From assembly GCA_030607875.1 (NCBI GenBank), contig JAUWJD010000016.1, positions 1 to 64,000 of the forward strand: a stretch of DNA of 64,000 nt, read 5' to 3'. Both the position numbers and the translations under genes were made by a program. Positions 30,413-32,606 of the stretch are shown one piece after another. Within the stretch, counting starts at the first letter, position 1, and each line of letters begins with the position of its first letter. The notes beneath the pieces are model-generated. The model saw nothing but the letters and a program-made list of their open reading frames with translations. It was not told where the DNA came from and ran no database searches. Source of the DNA: Chloroflexota bacterium. Lineage in GTDB: Bacteria; Chloroflexota; Anaerolineae; UBA2200.

Positions 30413-31534
30413 GTGTGTGAGCTTGGGACTGGACAGCGGGTGCTGGCAACCGGCAACTGGCAACCGCACAGGCGAATCCTGGTCATACGGCCTGGGGCTT
30501 TGGGTGACGTTCTGCTGACCCTGCCGGCGCTGCAGGCCTTGCAGGAGGCGTTCCCGCAGGCCGAGATCGAGGTGATGGGCAACCTGGCCGTATTGCAATG
30601 GCTGCCTGGTCGCAGTGTGGTTGCTGCGGTGTCGTCTTTTGATCGGGTGGATCTGGCTGGCCTGTTCCAATCCTCAGGCGTTGTCGCCGATTGTCTGCAA
30701 AGCTACCTGGCCCAATTCGATTGGATTCTCTCCTATGCTGTGCCGCCAGAGCGCCTTTTCGCCCGCAATCTGTCGCGCCTGGCACGTGGCATAGTGCTGA
30801 GCTTTGATGCGCGGCCCAGGCCGGACTTGTGCATGCATATGAGTCTGCATCTGCAGCAGCCCCTTCGGGAGCTGGGCGTGTCTGTGTGCACCGAGCCACC
30901 GCGCCTGCGGCTGACCGCAGCGGACCCGCAGGAGACTGCGCGGTGGTGGGTGGATCACGCGCTGGGTGACGAGCCTGTGCTGGCGGTACATCCGGGCAGC
31001 GGAAGCCCGGCCAAGAACTGGCTCGCCGAGCGCTTTGCCGCAGTGGCACGGCACCTGCATCGTGAACGCGGAGTAGGTATCTTGCTGATCAGCGGCCCTG
31101 CGGATGATCGGGCCGTTGGCAACGTGCAACGGGCTCTCGACGGTGTGGACTACGTGTTGCTGCATGACCCACCCTTGCCCCTTCTGGCGGCGATCCTGGC
31201 GCGCTGTTGGGCCTATCTGGGCAACGACTCGGGCGTGAGCCATCTGGCTGCGGCTGTGGGCGTGCCCACGGTGGCTATCTTCGGCCCCACGGACCCAGAC
31301 GTGTGGGCACCGCGTGGAGCCTCGGTGCGCGTGGTGCGTGGCAGCGCGGCTTGCGCGCCGTGCAGTTTGGAGCAGCGGCAGGCCTGCCAGCAGCGGGTGT
31401 GCTTGGGCGCGATTTCGACGGCTGAGGTGTTTGGCTTGTTGCAGGGCGTGGCCCTCACCCCCGGCCCCTCTCCCCTCGCCACGGGCGAGGGGAGAGGGGA
31501 GATGTGCTTCTCTGCGCATGGCCATCTGGGTTGA
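30413..31534 (+). CDS. Glycosyltransferase family 9 (heptosyltransferase-like)
   Basis: GT9 enzymes transfer ADP-heptose or related sugars. The core runs from RRILVIRPGALGDVLLTLPA (donor-fold start) through LAVHPGSGSPAKNWLAERFA to the conserved NDSGVSHLAAAVGVPTVAIF and GPTDPDVWAP. The enzyme body ends near VFGLLQGV; the last ~25 residues (ALTPGPSPLATGEG and on) are translated from a dispersed palindromic repeat. The first ~18 residues are also repeat-like (GTG 30413; GTG 30440 is an alternative), so both ends are encroached on by repeats. The acceptor is unknown. GT9 genes are not limited to LPS-bearing bacteria. Confidence 0.85.
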   Translation: MCELGTGQRVLATGNWQPHRRILVIRPGALGDVLLTLPALQALQEAFPQAEIEVMGNLAVLQWLPGRSVVAAVSSFDRVDLAGLFQSSGVVADCLQSYLAQFDWILSYAVPPERLFARNLSRLARGIVLSFDARPRPDLCMHMSLHLQQPLRELGVSVCTEPPRLRLTAADPQETARWWVDHALGDEPVLAVHPGSGSPAKNWLAERFAAVARHLHRERGVGILLISGPADDRAVGNVQRALDGVDYVLLHDPPLPLLAAILARCWAYLGNDSGVSHLAAAVGVPTVAIFGPTDPDVWAPRGASVRVVRGSAACAPCSLEQRQACQQRVCLGAISTAEVFGLLQGVALTPGPSPLATGEGRGEMCFSAHGHLG

Positions 31535-31620
31535 GGACGCAGGCTCCCTCTCCCCACGCTGGAAGATCAGGGAGTAGCCGAGACGTGGCGCGTGGGGAGA
31601 GGGTTGGGGTGAGGGGCAGA
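31449..31620. repeat. CCCTCACCC...GGGTGAGGG palindromic repeat, left copy
   Basis: Begins CCCTCACCCCCGGCCCCTCT and ends GAGAGGGTTGGGGTGAGGG, so each copy can fold on itself. A similar copy in the same orientation lies at 31995-32163, and the pair frames the DUF559 gene. Confidence 0.8.
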
Positions 31621-31624
31621 GCAC

Positions 31625-32116
31625 ATGAGGGACGCACGTAAACGGCGAACGGGTACTTTGACGGCTTCCAGGGCTCGCGACCTGCGCCAACGACAGACGT
31701 TAACTGAGATGAAGCTGTGGAGGCGCTTGCGTGACCGAAGGCTTGGCGGGTTCAAGTTTCGGCGGCAGTATCCGATGGGTCGCTTCATCGTCGATTTCTA
31801 CTGTGCGGCCTGCAAGGTGGTTGTGGAAGTGGATGGAGATTCGCATGCCGAACAGCTTCAGTACGACGCGGCGCGGACGGAATCGTTGCAGGCTCACGGT
31901 TGCCGGGTGATCCGCTTCACGAACAGGGAGGTTGGCAATCAACTGGCTGCAGTGCTGGAGGCGATTTTGGAGGAATGTCAGAAGAGGGAGCAAAGCCCTC
32001 ACCCTCGGCCCGCGCGCAGCCTCCCCGGAGCAAAGCGCAGGGGGCTCTCCCCTCGCCACGGGCGAGAGGAGAGGGGATACTTGCGTGAGCTCCCTCTCCC
32101 TACGCCGGAAGGCTAG
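31625..32116 (+). CDS. DUF559 endonuclease-like protein
   Basis: Small protein of the DUF559 family, which shares the PD-(D/E)xK/Vsr-type nuclease fold; the biological role of the family is not established. Visible marks: LTEMKLWRRLRDRRLGGFKF, RQYPMGRFIVDFYCAACK with the Asp of the active-site strand, VVVEVDGDSHAEQ with the E-x-D part, and GCRVIRFTNREV. The real domain ends near residue 120 (LEAILEECQK); the rest, to 163, is translated repeat. The gene lies wholly between two ~170-bp direct copies of a palindromic repeat, as in a composite element. Confidence 0.85.
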   Translation: MRDARKRRTGTLTASRARDLRQRQTLTEMKLWRRLRDRRLGGFKFRRQYPMGRFIVDFYCAACKVVVEVDGDSHAEQLQYDAARTESLQAHGCRVIRFTNREVGNQLAAVLEAILEECQKREQSPHPRPARSLPGAKRRGLSPRHGREERGYLRELPLPTPEG

Positions 32117-32163
32117 GGAGTAGTCGAGACGTGGAGCGTGGGGAGAGGGTTGGGGTGAGGGGA
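31995..32163. repeat. CCCTCACCC...GGGTGAGGG palindromic repeat, right copy
   Basis: Same orientation and overall plan as 31449-31620, including GGGAGTAGTCGAGACGTGGA near its end. It overlaps the 3' end of the DUF559 gene. Confidence 0.8.
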
Positions 32164-32237: not shown

Positions 32238-32606
32238 ATGGCCAAACTCGGAGGAGAAGTCAAGGAAGTCATGGAGCAGGTTGAGGTTGTCACCATCGGT
32301 ACTTGCGGAGAAGAAGGTGTCCATCTGGTGGCAACGTGGGGCGACTATGTAAGGAAGTTGGGCATCCAGAATGGCGAGATCTTGCTCGTTCCTGCGGGCG
32401 GATTCGGCAAGACGGAGCAGAACCTGAGCACGAATCCACGCATAGAGGTCCTGGTAGGCTCCAAGCAGGCCAACACCGGCTTCAGGCTGTCTGGCAGCGG
32501 CGAGGTACAGACCTCGGGTGAGTGGGCGGACATGGTGAAGGCTGAGTATCCCTGGGCGAGAGGAGCGCTTGTCATCCGCGTGGAGACGGTGGAAAAGCTC
32601 CTCTGA
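32238..32606 (+). CDS. Pyridoxamine 5'-phosphate oxidase family protein (FMN-binding split barrel)
   Basis: Short split-barrel flavoprotein-like protein (122 aa). The pattern VVTIGTCGEEGVHLVATWGD, GFGKTEQNLSTNPRIEVLVG and GFRLSGSGEVQTSGEW fits stand-alone PNPOx-fold proteins that bind FMN or a similar cofactor. Substrate unknown; it is too short for true PdxH. The start has an excellent AAAGGAGG site. Transcribed alone between the DUF559 repeat and a lipoprotein gene. Confidence 0.8.
   Translation: MAKLGGEVKEVMEQVEVVTIGTCGEEGVHLVATWGDYVRKLGIQNGEILLVPAGGFGKTEQNLSTNPRIEVLVGSKQANTGFRLSGSGEVQTSGEWADMVKAEYPWARGALVIRVETVEKLL

Follow-up and report, generated by a model that had tools for sequence, protein, structure and literature searches.

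Among the described systems closest to the locus reported here are REP/RAYT (TnpA-REP) and REPINs, in which an enzyme gene is flanked on both sides by tagged palindromes, enzyme and palindrome form cognate pairs, and non-autonomous copies, mostly intergenic, are dispersed as tagged inverted pairs. Rickettsial palindromic elements are in-frame palindromes in proteins, to which they add low-complexity peptides, and we know of no nuclease gene belonging to them. PIT/TM repeats, known since about 2000 and present in more than 260 genomes, have no associated mobility gene in their literature and an unexplained origin; E. coli carries 23 copies (TM_ECO; PMC4666352), and in the most detailed study the genes neighbouring these sites never had activities giving genetic mobility (PMC4666352). 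Here the same motif is linked to DUF559/YcjD, a family whose E. coli member has been assigned to the PD-(D/E)XK superfamily (PMC1189080). A literature search returned no function for YcjD or for its gonococcal relative NGO0050, and what our limited search covered of the DUF559 literature held nothing on repeats, although such a link may still be published.

Organisation of the locus

The window analysed is a 64,000-nucleotide stretch of a contig from a Chloroflexota bacterium (JAUWJD010000016.1), in which a glycosyltransferase gene, a repeat, a DUF559 gene, a second repeat and a pyridoxamine 5'-phosphate oxidase family gene follow one another (Table 1). A sequence-only reading had placed a DUF559 nuclease-like gene between two direct copies of a palindromic repeat, and this arrangement is borne out, with copies of about 165 bp in the same orientation that share the 5' end CCCTCACCC and the 3' end GGGTGAGGG. 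A 22-base end is found without mismatch at two places in the window, where 0.01 would be expected. The copies are 91% identical over their 3' 74 bp, and in their 5' parts hairpin 1 is common to both while the remainder is diverged or rearranged. The hairpin structure was confirmed, but each copy contains two hairpins and not a single palindrome, in the order tag, hairpin 1, spacer, hairpin 2 and inverted tag with the tags outward, a layout that from its sequence is REPIN/BIME-like. Folded as single-stranded DNA, hairpin 1 of the left copy has a perfect 16-bp stem of -22.2 kcal/mol (z=-5.4 against shuffles) and hairpin 2 a z of -3.7, and the hairpins of the right copy fold more weakly and are more decayed. 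In both copies a CCCTCTCCC-loop-GGGAGAGGG hairpin precedes the third, purine strand GGG(T/A)GAGGG, so that the repeat is the PIT/TM intrastrand-triplex motif CCCTCTCCC..GGGAGAGGG..GGGTGAGGG, and they match the published E. coli list.

Table 1 Coordinates of features at the repeat-DUF559-repeat locus (positions in the window)
Feature	Position	Strand	Remarks
GT9 (glycosyltransferase family 9) gene, host side	30413..31534	+	PF01075 E=1.8e-27; last ~27 codons read from left repeat
Left flanking repeat (REPIN-like)	31452..31615	+	tag CCCTCACCC 31452-31460; hairpin 1 31465-31499; spacer
Left flanking repeat, continued		+	hairpin 2 ~31546-31603; tag GGGTGAGGG 31607-31615
DUF559 (YcjD-like) PD-(D/E)XK nuclease gene, 163 aa	31625..32116	+	PF04480 E=1.8e-40, 137.6 bits; domain 31664-31981
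Right flanking repeat	31996..32161	+, direct	tag 31996-32004; hairpin 1 ~32045-32076
Right flanking repeat, continued		+	hairpin 2 ~32092-32149; tag 32153-32161
Pyridoxamine 5'-phosphate oxidase family gene, next downstream, outside element	32238..32606	+	PF01243 E=1.8e-10

Both repeats reach into reading frames, as had been proposed. Orthologues of the GT9 gene from the same family have a clean end (...EEVMEALAHLR*) before the repeat, and the window frame reads through into the left copy (...LLQGVALTPGPSPLATGEG...); at the other side the last ~44 codons of the DUF559 frame lie beyond the domain and mostly inside the right copy. The DUF559 protein, which belongs to the same family as N. gonorrhoeae NGO0050 (PDB 3HRL) and E. 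coli YcjD, was modelled with AlphaFold2 (pLDDT 84), and Foldseek ranked NGO0050 first, then the catalytic domain of I-Bth0305I (3R3P; E=1e-3, probability 1.00, TM-score 0.62-0.73) and then, weakly, Vsr. The putative catalytic residues D57, E68, D70 and H74 are invariant among 13 sequences. On this modelled fold, DUF559 is a PD-(D/E)XK nuclease with Vsr and the homing endonuclease I-Bth0305I as relatives.

Window ORFs and Pfam gave no transposase in the repeat-DUF559-repeat unit, an Rfam search of the window returned a tRNA only, PADLOC gave no convincing defence family, and no intein splicing blocks were seen by eye in the ORFs flanking DUF559. A phage origin was considered and rejected, a relative being present in only 3 of 50,697 phage records.

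The window's own genome (3.37 Mb, 84% complete) contains just these two full repeat copies, both adjoining the DUF559 gene. A third occurrence, one short solo TM hairpin plus tag on contig C41 (~88419-88454; L011:1420-1455), lies within the gene of an N6/N4 DNA methylase, whose frame translates it as LPSPPGRGAGGEGEG close to the N-terminus. The same genome has a second, distant DUF559-domain ORF (C50:39020-39313; L002, L012) in a 290-aa frame with no palindromes nearby.

DUF559 genes are associated with palindromes across genomes

The proposed association of repeat and gene in related genomes was found to be strong in Chloroflexota and Gammaproteobacteria and weaker in Deinococcota, and it recurs at single Neisseria and E. 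coli loci. The longest words shared by left and right flanks miss many real cases because the repeat arms diverge, and hairpin-based tests were therefore used. DUF559 is present in 127 of 400 Chloroflexota genomes, and around 90 of these loci we counted 104 TM hairpins in the 52.9 kb lying within 300 bp of the gene versus 8 in the 325 kb beyond 500 bp, a density about 80 times higher. Within 300 bp, 43 of 83 Chloroflexota loci have a TM hairpin and many others have a different G+C-rich palindrome. The strict motif stands on both sides of the gene in 26/83 Chloroflexota and 17/35 gammaproteobacterial loci, and more are flanked when any hairpin is accepted. Judged against each genome's own TM density, 60 occurrences near DUF559 were observed versus 0.65 expected, a 93-fold enrichment. 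Gammaproteobacterial loci have TM in 24/35 cases and any long perfect hairpin in 31/35; the weaker Deinococcota figures are 8/27 and 20/27. As a control we used UPF0102, of similar gene size and the same nuclease superfamily, and its 29 genes (17.4 kb) gave 0 TM and 1 hairpin. Chance or an intergenic bias is ruled out as the source of the association by the outer-flank, genome-density and UPF0102 controls, and its generality across several bacterial phyla is nearly certain.

These counts also bear on the most ordinary explanation, that these are terminator-like hairpins beside a small intergenic gene, or G+C-rich palindromes clustered by chance. Hairpins are often found 3' of genes, and the authors of the Enterobacter 638 genome took CCCTCTCCC..GGGAGAGGG as presumable terminators (PMC2869309), but such an account is contradicted by the UPF0102 control, by the confinement of both full copies in 3.37 Mb to the sides of DUF559, and by repeats that lie on both sides of the gene and within reading frames; we regard it as highly improbable.

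Whole genomes with DUF559 have a median of 18 TM copies, those without it a median of 1, and the odds ratio for at least 5 TM copies given DUF559 is 7.5 (p ~1e-18, phylogeny not corrected for). Fewer than 5 copies occur in 36 of the 127 DUF559 genomes, some of which use other palindromes, and at least 5 occur in 69 of the 273 genomes without a DUF559 match. These TM-rich, DUF559-negative genomes may be relics, missed genes or the work of another mobiliser; many of the surveyed genomes are incomplete MAGs, and the negatives may include misses, as the E. coli control was unmatched by PF04480 although K-12 carries ycjD, possibly through the use of another strain.

On two cyanobacterial plasmids (Pseudanabaena and Picosynechococcus; L159, L160) DUF559 sits between palindromes of the CCCCCAATTCTGGGGG type that have GATTTAGGGGG-like tags, and these palindromes are a cyanobacterial counterpart of TM. 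At two further loci (L121, L125) long poly-lysine frames (KKKKKKKK) lie beside DUF559 and are possibly assembly artefacts.

Palindromes follow the nuclease

Each nuclease clade tends toward its own palindrome. A tree of 166 nucleases, whose short sequences leave many of its forks unresolved, shows 23 changes of palindrome class, versus 46 with shuffled labels. In Chloroflexota each locus was compared with that of its nearest nuclease from a different genome, taken at a non-homologous site; the hairpin word similarity is 0.48, as against a permuted mean of 0.21 and maximum of 0.35 (2000 permutations), and two different nucleases in one genome have a hairpin similarity of 0.19, equal to background. 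The palindrome therefore follows the nuclease and not the genome.

The unit at unrelated sites and as solo repeats

One genome (G168) holds two units (L053 and L079) that are 81% identical over 616 bp with unrelated flanks, the homology beginning exactly at ACCTACCCCCTGCCCCCTCCC and extending to the right repeat. Past its right repeat, L053 has a further, incomplete DUF559 copy, which corresponds to the 3' part of the gene and was duplicated in tandem by way of the repeat. The ~80-bp repeat of these units, or its halves, bounded by ACCTA..TAGGT, occurs about 30 times each in G168 and the congeneric G343, two genomes that have DUF559; another congener, G200, has no DUF559 match and lacks the ~80-bp repeat. 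The orthologue of the L079 site in G343 (flanks 88-90% identical) has a solo repeat in place of the gene unit. Neither a target-site duplication nor a clean insertion product was seen in the alignments of L053/L079 and G343.

It could be that the repeats are spread by an undescribed transposase, by replication slippage or by recombination, and that DUF559 is carried along by chance flanking, or inserts into repeats as safe sites. Repeats do far outnumber DUF559 genes, and some genomes have them with no DUF559 detected; clade-specific palindromes, two nucleases of one genome carrying different ones, the 93-fold enrichment around one gene family and the congener that lacks both nuclease and repeat speak against it, and we consider this explanation unlikely.

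In-frame invasion of coding genes

In Anaerolineae-like relatives, the class of the window's genome, the MetH linker before the cobalamin cap exists as an empty allele, as a repeat-only allele with a single REPIN-like repeat (L138) and as a full repeat-DUF559-repeat allele, all in frame. The nucleases of the MetH set form one clade in the nuclease tree, and much or part of this pattern may therefore reflect vertical descent and loss instead of repeated homing. In-frame DUF559 units span Chloroflexota, Gammaproteobacteria, Deinococcota and one alphaproteobacterium, and their hosts include DUF1156, ISP-type, MmeI-like and N6/N4 DNA methylases as well as an aminotransferase-fold (BioF-like) protein, a Mur ligase and an EPSP-synthase-family (MurA-like) protein.

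DNA methylases recur as such hosts (L040, L043, L098, L112, L115, L116, L117, L119, L200 and L215), and of the two close DUF1156 methylases L043 and L040 only the former contains the in-frame TM peptide PHPQSLSLWERETARHPSPAGRGAGGEG. At four loci (L110, L111, L113 and L124) DUF559 lies within what appears by eye to be an intein of a DNA methylase (..CVRKG.. to ..HNCGSGTTA..), with palindromes inside that are read in frame.

The fold and the hairpins would also suit a resident nuclease of DNA repair, resolving or trimming repeat hairpins or triplexes and moving with them through linkage only. The Vsr-like fold, the well-paired, purine-rich stems and the instability reported at TM sites (Holder 2015, PMC4666352) are all in keeping with this, yet some genomes hold more than 100 TM copies with no DUF559 match, and a caretaker need not occupy a flanked unit at different sites of one genome or lie in frame within unrelated conserved genes. 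We find such a role rather improbable, somewhat more so than carriage by another agent.

A candidate minimal mobile element

Our preferred reading, to which we give a probability of roughly 60%, is that the repeat-DUF559-repeat unit is a minimal selfish element in which cutting and recombinational copying mobilise both the unit and its cognate palindromes. DUF559 would recognise its cognate pyrimidine/purine palindrome (in the window the PIT/TM hairpin with its GGGTGAGGG tag) and cut or nick it as duplex, cruciform or single-stranded hairpin, after which repair or template switching would copy the palindrome or the whole unit to new places. The two direct repeats could act as homology arms, and recombination between them would delete the gene and leave a solo repeat; gene-less repeats would be non-autonomous offspring, as REPs are to RAYTs. 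The sequence-only reading had already suggested an element that is mobile or driven by gene conversion and has no classical transposase, a view supported by the association, the L053/L079 pair, the MetH alleles and the solo repeat in G343. As DUF559 is regularly flanked by matching palindromes, the long-missing enzyme behind the spread of 'triplex' repeats in many bacterial genomes is probably this nuclease.

The comparison with REP/RAYT holds for the flanked enzyme gene, the cognate pairing, the mostly intergenic positions and, in G168 and G343, the dispersal in tagged inverted pairs; the window's genome differs in having only one further short copy. The enzyme also differs, RAYTs being Y1 HUH transposases and the window protein matching PF04480 only, as do the window tags (CCCTCACCC/GGGTGAGGG and not GTAG/CGTC), the homopyrimidine/homopurine stems, and the insertion of repeats and enzyme gene in frame within coding genes. 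By analogy, the element would combine a REP-RAYT-like organisation with homing-endonuclease-like chemistry and would fall outside the RAYTs. With the Vsr-like I-Bth0305I it has the catalytic-domain fold in common, and some DUF559 domains resemble intein endonucleases in lying within apparent methylase inteins; unlike these systems, the window locus has no intron or intein, and the elements have palindromic ends and many sites per genome. A classical insertion sequence is a poor match for a unit with no transposase, direct flanking copies and no target duplication seen. The in-frame palindromes recall the rickettsial elements, from which DUF559 repeats differ in sequence and in their wider taxonomic range.

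More tentatively, and with somewhat less than even confidence, we suggest that DUF559/YcjD elements are a new and very widespread class of mobile element with a single PD-(D/E)XK nuclease and no transposase, recombinase or reverse transcriptase. From them would come the PIT/TM repeats found in E. coli, Neisseria and other bacteria, as well as the analogous G+C-rich palindromes of cyanobacteria, and they would bring palindromes in frame into conserved and essential proteins. Our findings also suggest what the DUF559 domain may do and that palindromes can be mobilised by a non-HUH nuclease, with conserved genes such as that for methionine synthase invaded in frame. The candidate enzyme named here for PIT/TM spread is present in E. 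coli K-12 (ycjD) and has been crystallised from the gonococcus (3HRL), and the origin and spread of these repeats are therefore directly testable in laboratory strains.

DUF559 in E. coli and Neisseria gonorrhoeae

In E. coli K-12 ycjD (b1289, 1351407-1351760), which carries a DUF559 annotation, lies 168 bp from TM_ECO no. 9 of Holder et al. (1351204-1351239). The region with ycjD is mostly present in about 62% of 5,426 complete E. coli genomes, and the other E. coli examined have different DNA between sapF and fabI; ycjD has been treated as the occupant where the eef operon is missing (PMC12817139). As other lineages carry the eef operon in place of sapF-ycjD-fabI, there is no simple empty site, and E. 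coli was set aside as a clean insertion system. E. coli also varies at the TM loci lldD-trmL and alx-sstT, with gaps that may equally be deletions or insertions. At the N. gonorrhoeae locus (NZ_CP119142.1; L158) a DUF559 gene, probably of the NGO0050 family of PDB 3HRL, is flanked by TM-like repeats and followed by a tandem array of them with a period of ~280 bp.
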